NCBI RefSeq assembly: GCF_020532675.1
Contig: NZ_JAJAVE010000003.1
Span: 620,001-684,000, forward strand
Direction: 5' to 3'
Origin: Methylobacillus gramineus
Lineage (GTDB): Bacteria > Pseudomonadota > Gammaproteobacteria > Burkholderiales > Methylophilaceae
DNA: 64,000 nt
In this document: piece by piece, positions 14,090 to 39,457 of the stretch
How positions within the stretch are numbered: the stretch's first letter is position 1
How the letters are laid out: the number at the start of each line of letters is the position of its first letter
Made by a program: the position numbers and the translations under genes
The notes under the pieces: generated by a model
Databases searched by the model: none
Told to the model about the DNA's origin: nothing
What the model saw: the letters and a program-made list of their open reading frames with translations, nothing else

Positions 14090-15763
14090 ATGCCCAGTGA
14101 TATAGAGATTGCCCAGCAGGCTCAGATGAGGAGGATTACGGAGATTGCGCTTCAACTAGGGTTGAAGGAAGACTCGGTCGAGAATTATGGGCTATATAAG
14201 GCCAAGATAGATCTCGCTGCTAATCCCGAATTACAGGCCAGGCCGGACGGCAAGTTGATTTTAGTGACCGCGATCAGTCCCAGCCCGCCAGGGGAAGGCA
14301 AGACTACTACTACCGTGGGCTTGGGAGATGCACTAAACAAGATTGGCAGGCGCGCTATGATCTGTTTGCGTGAGCCATCAATGGGCCCTGTGTTTGGCAT
14401 GAAGGGAGGTGCCGCTGGTGGGGGGTATGCCCAAGTGGTACCGATGGAAGATATCAACCTACATTTCACCGGTGATTTTGCTGCGATAGCGCTTGCCCAT
14501 AACTTGCTGGCCGCGATGATAGACAATCATATTCATCATGGAAATGCCCTGGGCATAGACCCGCGGCAGGTTAGCTGGAAGCGCGTTGTAGACATGAATG
14601 ACCGGGCACTACGCCAAGTCGTGGTGGGCCTGGGTGGCAAGGTCAATGGCCAGCCGCGCGAAGAGGGGTTTGATATCGTGGTTGCTTCCGAGGTGATGGC
14701 GGTATTCTGTCTTGCCACTTCGCTGAAGGATTTGCGCTCCAGACTGGGTAATATCGTGATTGGCTATCGCCAAGATGGTGTTGCCATCACCGCGCGTGAT
14801 TTGCAGGCACATGGCGCCATGACAGTGTTGTTGAAAGACGCCATCAAGCCTAATTTAGTGCAAACCCTGGAACATACTCCCGCATTTGTCCATGGCGGTC
14901 CTTTCGCCAATATTGCCCATGGCTGCAACTCAGTGATAGCCACCAGCGCGGCACTCAAGTTGGCCGATTATGTGGTCACTGAGGCTGGTTTTGGTGCTGA
15001 CCTGGGCGCAGAAAAATTTATTGATATCAAATGCAGAAAATCCGGCTTGAGACCCGATGTCTGTGTGGTGGTAGCGACCATGCGTGCACTCAAGTATCAC
15101 GGCGGGGTGGATGTTTCCGCACTTGATCAGGAAAACCTGCAAGCGCTGCAGGCTGGGTTAGCCAACCTGGAAAAGCATGTGGACAATGTGACCCGGCATT
15201 ATGGCCTGTCCTGTGTGGTGGCCATTAATCGGTTTGATCACGATACGGATGCCGAGATCGGCTTGGTCCAATCCCATATGCAGAAACTCGGTGTGAATGT
15301 GGTGTTGGCGGAGCATTGGGCCAACGGGGGCGAAGGGGCTGTGTCTCTTGCTAATGAGGTGGTGAGGTTGGCAGCGGGGCAAAATATCACGATGCGTTAT
15401 GTATATGAGGACGCGGATGATCTTTGGGAAAAACTGCGTAAAGTAGCGACCCATATCTATGGAGCCACTGATGTATATGCCCCGCGTCGTGTCCGCTCCA
15501 TCATCGATAAGTTGCAGGCCGATGGCTATGGTCATTATCCAATCTGCATTGCAAAAACCCAGTATTCATTCTCTACAGATGCGGCACAACGCGGTTTGCC
15601 GCATGAGCATGTGGTGACGGTGAGGGCGGTGCGGTTATGTGCAGGGGCTGAGTTTGTGGTGATGATTTGTGATGACATCATGACAATGCCAGGATTGCCC
15701 AAAGAGCCTTGTGCAATGCGTATTGATATCGACGATGATGGGCGGGTAGTGGGATTGTATTAA
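14090..15763 (+). CDS. fhs: Formate--tetrahydrofolate ligase
   Basis: ATP-dependent enzyme joining formate to tetrahydrofolate, giving 10-formyl-THF for purine, formyl-Met and one-carbon metabolism. Motifs: the ATP-binding [19 protein letters not shown] (about residues 63-81), [20 protein letters not shown] and the C-terminal [11 protein letters not shown] set the start at ATG 14090, preceded by AAAGGA seven bases upstream, giving 557 residues; a TTG at 14072 is open but has no ribosome site. It stands alone, divergent from argB. In a methylotroph it links formate from formaldehyde oxidation back to assimilation. Confidence 0.97.
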
Positions 15764-15779
15764 TGCATGAAAAGCAAAA

Positions 15780-15842: not shown

Positions 15843-16598
15843 TTAGGCTTGTGTATTTTTCTTGCGACGTGCCATAAATCCGACTAGGGCCAGACCACCC
15901 AGCAATAATGCGTACTCAGAAGGTTCTGGTACGGCTGCAATCTGGTCAACCTGGAATGCTACAACGCTGCTGTGCAGGTGTACCAGGAAGGAAATTTCGT
16001 AAGAGGTGATCGGGTCACTGATACCACTGAAATCCCAAGTAAAGTAACCAACAGCGCCTTCAGCAACTGGGTTTGCAGGGTCGTAAAAAGGTGAGTCTTC
16101 ATTGACCGGTGCATCCGACAGGCTGAAGCTGCTTGCTGCCAGAAGTTGAGTACCGCCGTTATAGCTCAGGTATACATCGGAAATCGCTGCAGCAAGGCCA
16201 CCCTGGCCACCTAGCGACTGATTGCCACCAGGGAATACTTCACTCTGGAACACAATTGAACCGAGGTTTGGAAGTAGCGTAGCATCAGAAATGCTGAATG
16301 TTGAGTAGGGTGTACCCGACCATTGATATAAACCGAGAGAAGCGGGATATGCATTGCCATAAGTACGCTTAAATTCAGCATCGCCAGCAGGTACATTGCT
16401 GTTGATGCCATCCACAATGGCTGCAATGCCGGTTGTGCCAGCACCTAAGCGGCTGGCCGTCAGTTGATTGAACCCATCAGTCGTCAGAGAGCCTGTGACA
16501 TCAGAAAAGTATTGGCTAGTTGGAGTTGCCGCTTGAGAGAGTGATGTGGCTACCAGCATGGTTAAAGCAAGAATGCTTTGGGAGTATGCAATGTTCAT
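15843..16598 (-). CDS. PEP-CTERM sorting domain exported protein
   Basis: Secreted protein with N-terminal signal peptide (ILALTMLVATSLSQAA, cleavage near residue 23), an acidic, Gly/Ser/Thr-rich middle of unknown fold, and a C-terminal PEP-CTERM signal: VPEPSEYALLLGGLALVG followed by FMARRKK. That signal is recognised by an exosortase and is typical of Gram-negative bacteria that make exopolysaccharide. No exosortase gene is in this window. A GAAGGGGA ribosome site precedes the ATG. Function beyond sorting is unknown. The 5' intergenic region to the next gene is strikingly AT-rich. Confidence 0.9.
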   Translation of the reverse strand: MNIAYSQSILALTMLVATSLSQAATPTSQYFSDVTGSLTTDGFNQLTASRLGAGTTGIAAIVDGINSNVPAGDAEFKRTYGNAYPASLGLYQWSGTPYSTFSISDATLLPNLGSIVFQSEVFPGGNQSLGGQGGLAAAISDVYLSYNGGTQLLAASSFSLSDAPVNEDSPFYDPANPVAEGAVGYFTWDFSGISDPITSYEISFLVHLHSSVVAFQVDQIAAVPEPSEYALLLGGLALVGFMARRKKNTQA

Positions 16599-16767: not shown

Positions 16768-18342
16768 TTAGATGCGCTTGCTGAATACCTTGGAGCGGCG
16801 TTGCAGGTTGTAGAATTTCTGTTTTTCGCCTGGTAGTTTTTCAACATCAGTTTCTGTGAAGCCGCGTTCAAGAAACCAGTGTTCGGTACGGGTAGTCAGG
16901 ACAAAGACCGATTGCAGGCCAAGTTCGCTAGCCTGTTCTTCGCAGTAGCTGAGCAGGCGGTCGCCACGTCCACCACGGCGGAATGAAGCATGAATCGCCA
17001 TGCAGGCCAGCTCGGCGGTTTTTTCGGCAGGGAATGGGTAGAGTGCTGCACAGCCTATGATTTTGCCATCGTGTTCCATGACGTGGAATCGATCAATTTC
17101 CATTTCCAAGCGTTCGCGCCCACGTCTTACCAGTATGCCTTCGTTTTCCAGTGGTTCTATAAGCTGCAATATGCCACCGACATCGCCAATGTCTGCCTTG
17201 CGCATGGCTTCCAGGGAGGCTTCGGTGACCATGGTGCCTATACCATCATGCGTGAAGAGTTCTTGCAGGATGGCACCATCGGTATGGCGGCTGATCAGGT
17301 GTGTGCGGGCAACCCCTTGATCGCATGCCCTGACAGCGGCCGGCAAATAATACAGTTCATCTTCGGTAATGTTCTGGCCGCCGTTTACTTCTGTATGGCG
17401 CAAAAGATTTTTGGCTTTATCCGCGGTCATTTCCCGCAGCAATTCACCACGGATGTTATGCACACCTGAAGAGTCCATCAGGAAGATCAGTTTGTCGGCA
17501 TCCAGCGCGATCGCGGCGCTGGTGGCAACATCTTCCAGTGTCAGGTTGAATACTTCGCCGGTTGGCGAGTAGCCCAGTGGTGAAAGGAGCACCAGTTCTC
17601 CATCGTCCAGCCGCTTCTGGATGCCGATGGCATCGACTTTGCGCACCTCTCCGGTATGTTGCAGGTCTACACCTTCTATCACCCCCAGTGGTTTTGCCGT
17701 GACAAAATTCCCGCTTGCGACCCGGATATCAGCGCCCGCCATCGGCGAATTGATGAGCCCCATGGAAAGAAGGGACTCGATTTCGACGCGCACTGAGCCA
17801 TTGGCTTCCTTGACGGCTTCCATGGCTTCGTCATCTGTGACGCGCAAACCATTCACCAGGCGGGTCTTCAGCTTGGCGCGTTTGAGCCGGGTTTCAATTT
17901 GAGGGCGAGAGCCATGCACCAATACCAGCCTGACTTCCAGGCTGGCAAGCAGATTGAGGTCGTGGGATAGCGTCACAAACTGTCCATCGTCTACGACCTC
18001 CCCACCAAAGGCGATCACAAAGGTTCGTCCGCCAAAGGCATGTATATAGGGAGCAGCCGAGCGAAACCAGCGGACAAATTCCTGAGGTTGATGCAGGTTG
18101 AGTCGCGACGTGGAGGTGGATTTGCCGGTTTCTCTTTCGCTTTGGGCATAAAGAAACGCAGCAGTGCAGTCCAGGGCAGTGCATAGCTTGTGCAGCATGG
18201 CTTCTGACACCCCTTGCGAGCCGCGTTCTATACGGGAGAGATTGCCGCTGTTTGCGTCCACCTTGCGCGCCAACTCTTGCAAGGTCATATTGAGGGCTTT
18301 ACGGCGCTTGCGCAGGGCATTGCCTAGGGACATGGCAGGCAT
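16768..18342 (-). CDS. argA: HTH-domain fused N-acetylglutamate synthase (ArgA type)
   Basis: First enzyme of arginine synthesis: acetyl-CoA plus glutamate to N-acetylglutamate. The C-terminal 440 residues are a standard ArgA: an amino acid kinase-like domain from about residue 87 (EFVRWFRSAAPYIHAFGGRT, then RLVLVHGSRPQIE) and a GNAT acetyltransferase domain from about residue 385 with the acetyl-CoA loop ASFRRGGRGDRLLSYCEE. In front, residues 5-62 form an XRE/Cro helix-turn-helix: LRKRRKALNMTLQELARKVD then ANSGNLSRIERGSQGVSEAM. All in one uninterrupted frame, so the gene encodes a fusion of about 524 residues against about 440 for normal ArgA. The HTH suggests DNA binding, perhaps arginine-responsive autoregulation; this is inference. 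Confidence 0.9.
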   Translation of the reverse strand: MPAMSLGNALRKRRKALNMTLQELARKVDANSGNLSRIERGSQGVSEAMLHKLCTALDCTAAFLYAQSERETGKSTSTSRLNLHQPQEFVRWFRSAAPYIHAFGGRTFVIAFGGEVVDDGQFVTLSHDLNLLASLEVRLVLVHGSRPQIETRLKRAKLKTRLVNGLRVTDDEAMEAVKEANGSVRVEIESLLSMGLINSPMAGADIRVASGNFVTAKPLGVIEGVDLQHTGEVRKVDAIGIQKRLDDGELVLLSPLGYSPTGEVFNLTLEDVATSAAIALDADKLIFLMDSSGVHNIRGELLREMTADKAKNLLRHTEVNGGQNITEDELYYLPAAVRACDQGVARTHLISRHTDGAILQELFTHDGIGTMVTEASLEAMRKADIGDVGGILQLIEPLENEGILVRRGRERLEMEIDRFHVMEHDGKIIGCAALYPFPAEKTAELACMAIHASFRRGGRGDRLLSYCEEQASELGLQSVFVLTTRTEHWFLERGFTETDVEKLPGEKQKFYNLQRRSKVFSKRI

Positions 18343-18415
18343 CCAAAGAAGTGGTTGGGAAACTGCGTTTAAAGCATATTTTTATACAAAATTACTTTTA
18401 ATGCAATTGTTCTGC

Positions 18416-19153
18416 TTAAACAGTAAAGTCGCCCCATAATATTTGCATGGCAGCAATCGCGGCAAGTGCCGCCGTTTCGGTGCGGAGAATGCGTTTGCCC
18501 ATGCGCACCGGGATAAATCCATGGGTGGCACCCAACGAGATTTCCTCAGTGGTGAAGCCGCCTTCTGCACCAATCAAAAAACAAATGTCGCCGGTCGGTG
18601 GTGCTAAGTCTGCCAGTGTTTTTTCAGCGCCCGGGGCTAAGGTAATGAAGGTGGTGGCTTGAGGTTTCTGCGCCAGCCATTCGGGTAAGGAGAGTGGCAT
18701 GGCTACTTGAGGCACAGTCGCTCGACCAGATTGTTCGCAAGCTGAAATGACCACATTCTGCCAGTGCTCGCGCCGTTTTTCTGCACGCTCACCGGTGAGT
18801 TTGACCACGCTGCGGCGGCTCGCAATCGGTTGAATTGCGCTGACGCCCATTTCAACCGTTTTTTGGATGGTGAAATCCATGCGGTCGCCAGATGAAATGG
18901 CTTGCGCCAGTGTGATACGTAAGGGGGATTCTGTATCGGCTGGCGCAATCGAGCGAACAACCGCGCTGACGCTGGATTTGCGGACATCGGTTAATTCACA
19001 GGTGTAATTGTGGCCATCCCCATTGAATAAAATGGCCATGTCACCTGTTTGCATGCGTAATGCGCGACTTGCATGCGCAGCTGCGCTCTCAGGCAAGTTG
19101 ATGTGTGCTCCTGAAGAAAGCGAATCAGGGCAGTAGAAGCGTGGAGTGCTCAT
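18416..19153 (-). CDS. rsmE: 16S rRNA (uracil(1498)-N(3))-methyltransferase
   Basis: SPOUT-family methyltransferase acting on helix 44 of 16S rRNA. The 245-residue protein starts MSTPRFYCPDSLSSGAHINL with an N-terminal PUA-like domain; the C-terminal knotted SAM-binding part shows FLIGAEGGFTTEEI and LGKRILRTETAALAAIAAMQ-like sequence (MGKRILRTETAALAA). It lies upstream of the HTH-argA gene on the same strand with a 73-base gap, and is divergent from the redoxin gene. Confidence 0.95.
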   Translation of the reverse strand: MSTPRFYCPDSLSSGAHINLPESAAAHASRALRMQTGDMAILFNGDGHNYTCELTDVRKSSVSAVVRSIAPADTESPLRITLAQAISSGDRMDFTIQKTVEMGVSAIQPIASRRSVVKLTGERAEKRREHWQNVVISACEQSGRATVPQVAMPLSLPEWLAQKPQATTFITLAPGAEKTLADLAPPTGDICFLIGAEGGFTTEEISLGATHGFIPVRMGKRILRTETAALAAIAAMQILWGDFTV

Positions 19154-38227: not shown

Positions 38228-39457
38228 ATGCCAGTCAATCTAGTCGCGCCTGAAGCGCAATCTCTTCTAGCTGTACCAGGTCTCAAGCTCGGTATTGCCA
38301 AAGCCCGTATCCGTAAACCTGACCGCAAGGACATGCTGGTGATGTTGCTGGCGGAGGGTAGTCGTGTGGCGGGTGTATTCACAAAAAATCGTTTCTGTGC
38401 TGCTCCCGTCACCTTGTGCAAGGAGCATCTGGCCCAGCCTGATGGCATACGGGCATTGGTGGTCAATACAGGTAATGCCAACGCAGGTACGGGTGATCAG
38501 GGCATGCAGAATGCGCGTGCTACCTGTGACGCCTTGGCAGATTTGTTGCAGATCAAGCCCGCGCAAGTGCTGCCTTTCTCTACAGGTGTCATTCTCGAGC
38601 AATTGCCGATCGATCGCTTGATTGCCGGTTTGCCGCAATGTGTGGCTGACTTGCAAGAGAGCCACTGGTTTGATGCGGCGGAAGCGATTATGACAACGGA
38701 TATTGTCTCCAAGGGCACTTCGCGCCAAATCACGCTGGACGGCAAGCAGGTCACCATCACTGGTATTTCCAAGGGCTCGGGCATGATCCATCCCAATATG
38801 GCGACCATGCTAGGCTATATTGCTACCGATGCCGCCATCAGCCAGGCTGCATTGCAGGCATTGATTGATCATGCGGTGAATCGCTCATTCAACTGTATTA
38901 CCGTAGATGGCGATACATCGACCAATGATTCCCTGATCCTGGTTGCGACTGGCAAGGCAGGTAACAGCGAAATTACGGACACTACCAGTGCTGATTACCT
39001 GACATTACGCGATGCCATGACTGACGTGGCAGTAGAGCTGGCACAAGCGATTGTACGAGATGGTGAAGGTGCCACCAAGTTCATGACCATACAAGTGGAA
39101 GCTGGTCGCGATGAGGATGAATGCCGTCAGGTGGCCTATGCCATTGCCCATTCACCATTGATCAAGACAGCCTTCTTTGCTTCTGATCCTAATCTGGGAC
39201 GTATTCTTGCCGCCATTGGCTACGCAGGCGTGGATGACCTTGATGTCAACAGCATGCAATTATATTTGGGAGATGTACTGGTGGCTGAGCATGGCGGGCG
39301 GGCAGTCAGCTATGTCGAGGAGTTAGGTGCCGCTGTGATGAAGGAATCCGAGATTACTGTGCGCGTGGTGCTGAATCGGGGCCAGGCAAGTGCGACAGTC
39401 TGGACCTGTGATTTTTCCTATGACTATGTTCGTATCAATGCAGATTATCGCAGCTAA
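38228..39457 (+). CDS. argJ: Bifunctional ornithine acetyltransferase / N-acetylglutamate synthase
   Basis: Transfers acetyl from N-acetylornithine to glutamate (and can also use acetyl-CoA), recycling the acetyl group in arginine synthesis. The 409-residue precursor self-cleaves before a Thr; that site, [19 protein letters not shown], has Thr at about residue 192. Other motifs: [19 protein letters not shown] and [12 protein letters not shown]. It coexists with an ArgA-type synthase at 16.8 kb. No obvious strong promoter seen. Confidence 0.97.

Follow-up and report, generated by a model that had tools for sequence, protein, structure and literature searches.

A helix-turn-helix domain fused to N-acetylglutamate synthase in the Methylophilaceae, with candidate operators upstream of argA

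The argA locus and the fused protein

We analysed a 64,000-nucleotide stretch of the Methylobacillus gramineus genome (the window, whose positions are used below), in which a minus-strand frame at 16768-18342 is open across 524 codons, according to the open reading frame list and its translation. The original prediction had read this frame as a helix-turn-helix (HTH) domain fused to a complete ArgA, the N-acetylglutamate synthase (NAGS), and that reading held: one open frame carries an XRE-type HTH at residues 6 to 63 and ArgA at residues 85 to 523. It had also taken 18342 as the start and argued that the HTH could not be removed by restarting the frame. The latter point stands, and the start itself is probably Met4, at 18333, since relatives align from residue 2 to 4 and since the ATG equivalent to Met4 is the sole candidate start in the scanned range at 24 of the 37 family loci described below. 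From this likely start, which rests on the alignment of relatives and the start scan, the coding sequence occupies 16768..18333 (minus strand) and encodes 521 amino acids. The upstream neighbour is an RsmE-type 16S rRNA methyltransferase gene (18416..19153, minus strand; open reading frame list, Pfam and NCBIfam). Immediately downstream of argA, a PEP-CTERM sorting-signal protein (PF07589) is encoded at 15843-16598 on the minus strand.

The HTH domain (18154..18327, minus strand) scored over the Pfam cut-offs with HTH_31 (residues 6 to 60, 37.9 bits against 27) and HTH_3 (residues 10 to 63, 35 bits against 23). Small XRE proteins matched inside residues 5 to 71, namely C.BclI (2b5a; residues 6 to 71, E 3.9e-5 by sequence), ClgR and one more. 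The ArgA part (16771..18090, minus strand; residues 85 to 524 by Pfam, NCBIfam and alignment) consists of a kinase-like domain (AA_kinase, residues 107 to 351) followed by a GNAT domain (Acetyltransf_1, residues 412 to 486), and two ArgA equivalog models span it, NF003641 (residues 85 to 523, 689.5 bits against a cut-off of 344) and TIGR01890 (residues 89 to 523, 584.1 bits against 202.85). The best solved relative was the NAGS of Neisseria gonorrhoeae (2r8v), which matched from residue 82 onward. The arginine-site residues K201 and E270 of the gonococcal enzyme (PMC4490483, accessible part) correspond to K284 and E361 of HTH-ArgA, both invariant in a 35-sequence alignment (A2). Judged by these matches, HTH-ArgA is a classical NAGS with a predicted enzyme function. 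It has the same kinase-like and GNAT domains over residues 85 to 523 as the classical hexameric enzyme (2r8v) and keeps the arginine-site residues, but classical NAGS lacks a DNA-binding domain, and none is mentioned in the accessible part of PMC4490483.

An AlphaFold2 model (monomer, 35 sequences; mean pLDDT of 84, pTM of 0.66) placed five helices in the first 68 residues, numbered from Met4, with the helix pattern of the XRE fold and a predicted recognition helix at residues 29 to 36 of that numbering (32 to 39 of the open frame). The NAGS body follows a linker in which residues 70 to 81, again numbered from Met4, have a pLDDT below 50. This linker is disordered in the prediction and varies in length and sequence among relatives. 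In the model, the HTH is attached just before the helix that matches the moving N-terminal helix of gonococcal NAGS.

Distribution and conservation of the fusion

We compared the domain architecture of ArgA homologues, as had been suggested with the original prediction, for which absence of the fusion from close relatives, owing to a frameshift in this assembly, had been named as a refuting outcome. The main sample of 61 genomes was made up of the window's genome, 5 others of its genus, 31 further members of the methanol-using Methylophilaceae and 24 genomes of other families in the order. The family set contained 37 genomes in 24 genera, assigned to the Methylophilaceae by named loci. ArgA was found in all 61 genomes, and an HTH lay ahead of it in 37/37 family genomes, in 35 of them in a single continuous frame, which lays the frameshift concern to rest. 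HTH and ArgA were recovered as one match in 33 of the 37 (the match in G027 is cut by a contig end). G012 has a fusion with a longer linker and G019 a divergent one (39 percent, matching from residue 11); in G036 the two parts are joined over a 31-base run of N at the linker, and in G002 the frame changes within argA near residue 176.

No HTH was found on ArgA in the 24 genomes of other families of the order, where matches begin at residue 69 or later. In a search of named genomes, 44 of 73 loci matched from residue 1 to 4 and carry the fusion, and the remaining 29 matched from residue 53 or later. The fusion loci include Methylobacillus (M. caricis, 96 percent), Methylovorus, Methylotenera, Candidatus Methylopumilus, Novimethylophilus and Pseudomethylobacillus, and from these names we take the Methylophilaceae to be the fusion-bearing family. 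Inspection by eye of the N-terminal extensions of the 29 other loci revealed no HTH (for L102, L106 and L127, in the first 140 of about 494 residues). At these three loci, ArgA stands at the end of long frames, another way of fusing ArgA; the frames begin like what we take to be argininosuccinate lyase (ArgH). Across the class, 107 of 134 genomes, the window's own included, had a match, and among the matches listed, the earliest start of an ArgA-length match, the window aside, was residue 48, with a few beginning between residues 48 and 62.

Mean conservation across 34 of the 37 family proteins (leaving out one locus at a contig end, L021, one with the N run, L028, and one with the frame change, L034) was 0.743 for the HTH and 0.389 for the linker, and 0.845 and 0.766 for the kinase-like and GNAT domains, respectively. 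Eight residues of the HTH region were invariant (R14, L24, N34, L35, S36, I38, E39 and L64). XRE folds in general share part of this pattern, so that HTH conservation is better evidence for retention of the fold than of the specificity, and much of it could be due to the fold. On the sequences compared, the HTH-ArgA fusion is real and fixed in the Methylophilaceae.

Palindromes at argA and other arginine genes

Upstream of argA we found palindromes of the form TGYn7RCA with A/T-rich flanks, mostly in pairs. The pair in the window consists of two candidate operators 29 to 30 bp apart, identified from the site table and profile: O1, AATTGCATTAAAAGTAATT on the minus strand (18390..18408), and O2, ATATGCTTTAAACGCAGTT on the minus strand (18361..18379). 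The O1 sequence contains a predicted -35 element, TTGCAT (18401-18406, minus strand), and the predicted -10, placed by eye from relatives, is TAAAAA in the window (18379..18384, minus strand). This -10 is poor, and a simple promoter scan did not have the promoter in its list. At L021 and L022 a perfect TATAAT lies 16 bp beyond the TTGC of the -35 in O1, at the same place as the window -10, and O2 starts about 2 to 3 bp past it (both by eye). O2 lies over the expected transcription start, which in this predicted layout is the position of a repressor.

The original prediction had proposed an operator of the gene's own in 18343-18415, formed by the near-inverted words GTTTAAAGC and GCTTAAAC. An operator in this interval is supported by candidate sites at 37/37 family loci and at 22/22 further loci, and GTTTAAAGC (18367-18375) falls inside O2. 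We rejected the pair itself, since GCTTAAAC (18414-18421) shares bases with the upstream gene's stop codon; the conserved second site is O1.

Sites were tabulated for 34 of the 37 loci, leaving out L035, L036 and L037 for their other spacing (about 50 bp in the first two and 42 bp in L037), and 32 of the 34 rows entered alignment A1 (all except L010 and L032). O2 began with TG in 34/34 genomes, followed by C or T in 34/34, and had the closing C in 33 and the closing A in 33. O1 likewise began with TG in 34/34, with the closing C in 21 and the closing A in 25, and given this loose right arm, part of O1 may be a -35 element only. L029 shows a joint change of the outer bases to TGT/ACA at both its sites, and L020, L025, L031 and L032 show it at O2. 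The operator of Methylobacillus glycogenes JCM 2850 (L097) is the same as that of L034, the locus of G002.

For scoring we used a leave-one-genus-out profile, built from the O2 sites of other genera and judged at p<0.05 against shuffles. It found a site in 37/37 family argA upstream regions and a second site 28 to 31 bp away in 32 of the 37 (missing in L009, L010, L028, L030 and L037), with training sites that had been picked by an earlier double-site score. That score, devised after the sequences had been seen and replaced by the profile, had reached p<0.05 in 33/37, with controls at 11.9 or less against a family median of 13.8. Sites of at least 10 bits were spaced 29 bp in 7 pairs and 30 bp in 11, any other distance occurring at most once, and the rest of the same loci held 17 such sites in 154,512 positions. 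A site of at least 10 bits was present in 44/44 fusion loci of the named-genome search, including 22/22 outside the first set, none identical to it and some near relatives of it. Seven loci have three sites, at about -94, -63 and -33: L020 and, outside the first set, L071, L075, L076, L079, L098 and L099, two of these six being Methylopumilus.

At 11 of the 37 family loci an ArgB-like match begins no more than 250 bp past argA, and the argA promoter may therefore drive argB there. In the window, argB lies 2.9 kb from argA with an oppositely directed gene between them. The window also holds a third site-like palindrome (15761-15779, 17.4 bits) between two convergent genes, where a promoter is not expected; it adjoins a strong hairpin, GCGGCAATCTCCCC...GGGGAGATTGCCGC.

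Residue 32 of HTH-ArgA, the first of the recognition helix predicted by AlphaFold2, varies with the outer bases of the sites. In a comparison of 31 rows, made after looking and with few independent changes, the mean number of TGT/ACA outer triplets out of four was 0.5 with Ser32 (20 rows), 1.0 with Thr32 (4 rows) and 2.3 with Ala32 (7 rows). On the ArgA tree, Ala32 appears in two groups that stand apart from each other. Among loci at 41 to 45 percent G+C, the Ser rows L022 and L033 had 0 and 1 such triplets and five Ala rows had 3 to 4; the Ala rows L027 and L030, at 48 and 52 percent G+C, had none. This covariation in part of the genomes is a hint that the fused HTH reads these palindromes.

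We looked for the same sites at other arginine genes, as single and double sites at argC (30 loci from 27 genomes), argG (27) and argJ (27) and as single sites at argF, carA and argH (18 each). Gene starts were taken as the ATG or GTG nearest the model match, so that some upstream regions may sit inside operons. None of the 138 upstream regions reached 13 bits with the leave-one-genus-out profile, and neither did any of 19 argA genes from genomes of other families (20 of the 24 genomes taken, L044 giving no match). At p<0.05 we counted 1/30 for argC, 1/27 for argG, 1/27 for argJ, 0/18 for argF, 0/18 for argH and 1/19 for other-family argA. The sole count that leans toward further targets is carA, with 4/18 loci at p<0.05, all below 13 bits. 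With no site of at least 13 bits at these six genes, a wider arginine regulon of HTH-ArgA is not supported.

A double-site search of all 61 whole genomes used a sequence-only model, R1, with stricter filters; its power is weak in AT-rich genomes, and its figures are those among the matches listed. In 33 of the 37 family genomes argA came out on top (the exceptions being G019, G026, G031 and G035), a score that follows by construction since R1 was built from argA sites, only the lack of other places being informative. Weak matches occurred in 9 of the 24 genomes of other families (best E 0.0147 among the matches listed). Twelve second places were taken, 5 with their frames listed and 7 scored only; among the matches listed and the 5 frames viewed, no second target was common to genomes. 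In G009 and G003, of two genera, the second place (L161 1084-1133 and L164 1265-1314) has two site-like words 30 bp apart inside what is presumably metW. We took it as a coding coincidence rather than an operator, as it lies over a shared peptide, FALIAKWI. The other three second places viewed had no recognised gene in common.

The DNA-binding domain of ArgR (Arg_repressor, PF01316) reached the cut-off in 0/61 genomes, G021 and G028 giving weak matches below it, and in 8 of 14 control genomes. Its absence alone does not explain the fusion, because the other families are also without ArgR. In the window, argJ lies at 38270-39454 (plus strand; contig 658270-659454; genome search), giving this genome a route for acetyl recycling. 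Since argJ was present in 27/27 genomes searched, ArgA probably tops up an acetyl cycle.

Proposed regulation of argA by its own product

From the comparative evidence, we consider it quite probable that HTH-ArgA combines two functions, those of an enzyme and of a repressor of argA, in the manner of a trigger enzyme, and that it lacks a wider arginine regulon. The kinase-like and GNAT domains would make N-acetylglutamate under arginine feedback, and the XRE domains at the N terminus, forming pairs on the NAGS ring, would bind the two (in some relatives three) spaced palindromes; binding over its own promoter would repress argA. Arginine would strengthen DNA binding through the N-terminal helix and a ring movement as in gonococcal NAGS. 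Feedback would then be twofold, on the enzyme and on its synthesis, with no regulon needed. Three links are inferred: the fused HTH as the binder at the palindromes, repression as the outcome of binding, and stronger binding with arginine. Autorepression of argA appears likely, the chances of arginine acting as co-repressor seem about even, and multivalent reading of the spaced operators by the ring is possible.

In the hexameric bacteria-like NAGS of the gonococcus, for which structures exist with and without arginine, arginine moves the N-terminal helix, and the ring becomes about 10 Å wider and, along its axis, about 20 Å shorter (PMC4490483, accessible part). A more speculative version, which we hold to be rather unlikely, would make the NAGS hexamer a multivalent repressor, with six HTHs forming three dimers on operators, two or three in number, spaced about 30 bp. 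The ring widening that arginine drives, which moves the N-terminal helix to which the HTH is joined, would decide whether the dimers fit this spacing. Arginine would close enzyme and gene in one movement, and the three-site arrays of seven loci would match three HTH dimers.

Autorepression could also work without a ligand, HTH-ArgA binding according to its amount and fixing its own level, with arginine acting on activity alone. The sites do occur at argA itself, as in simple self-limiting loops, and the linker, being disordered and differing in length and sequence between relatives, speaks against a tight mechanical coupling. However, the HTH is attached just before the helix that moves with arginine in the gonococcal enzyme, and the checked arginine-site residues, K284 and E361, are kept. 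We regard ligand-free autorepression as a serious possibility that falls somewhat short of even. That the palindromes belong to another regulator, the fused HTH binding elsewhere or serving assembly, is improbable: XRE proteins are common and the pairing of this HTH with these palindromes is drawn from sequence, but HTH and sites co-occur in all family genomes and are both absent from the other-family argA genes tested, the palindromes were not found at the other arginine genes, and residue 32 varies with the outer site base in part of the genomes (a post hoc observation). HTH-ArgA might instead activate its own promoter, or arginine transport or breakdown genes beyond those tested; O1 sits at the -35 and the single-site scan covered six arginine genes, but O2 over the expected transcription start is in a repressor position and the double-site search gave no common second target among the matches listed, which leaves activation very unlikely. 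A frame error joining two neighbouring genes, of which the frame change inside the gene in G002 and the N run at the linker in G036 might be signs, is refuted by the continuous frames of 35/37 family genomes and can be set aside.

The preferred reading, a NAGS repressing its own gene, has partial counterparts. XRE controller proteins such as C.BclI (2b5a) act at paired palindromes over their own promoters; their HTH is alike in sequence, but they are small, stand-alone proteins without an enzyme. ArgR is a hexameric, arginine-sensing repressor of arginine synthesis. It differs from HTH-ArgA in its unrelated DNA-binding domain, and its regulon is broad (PMC5343134, accessible part). The trigger enzymes BirA, NadR and PutA are likewise metabolic enzymes with a DNA-binding domain (PMC8249747, accessible part), but they are other enzymes of other pathways. 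A trait of such enzymes, conserved candidate sites before a metabolically linked target, is present here (37/37 and 22/22 argA upstream regions). PutA, an enzyme that targets no locus other than its own, is by analogy the nearest in logic. Its binding is confined to the spacer that separates its gene from putP, and it quits the DNA when its substrate is present (PMC8249747, accessible part), whereas binding by HTH-ArgA would follow the end product, and no target past argA was found. Our literature searches, whose scope excluded subscription journals and bioRxiv preprints, turned up neither a fusion of an HTH to NAGS nor a NAGS that binds at its own gene, and the fusion is not mentioned in the accessible parts of PMC4490483, PMC5343134, PMC8249747 and PMC6978683.

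With ArgR over the cut-off in 0/61 genomes of the order, the question is raised how arginine gene expression tracks the arginine level there. The genetic parts of the proposed system are few and clear, one domain and two short sites, and the NAGS structures with and without arginine (PMC4490483, accessible part) make the link between ring movement and DNA binding directly testable. If the proposal is true, one protein would be the sensor, the enzyme and the repressor of the first step of arginine synthesis.
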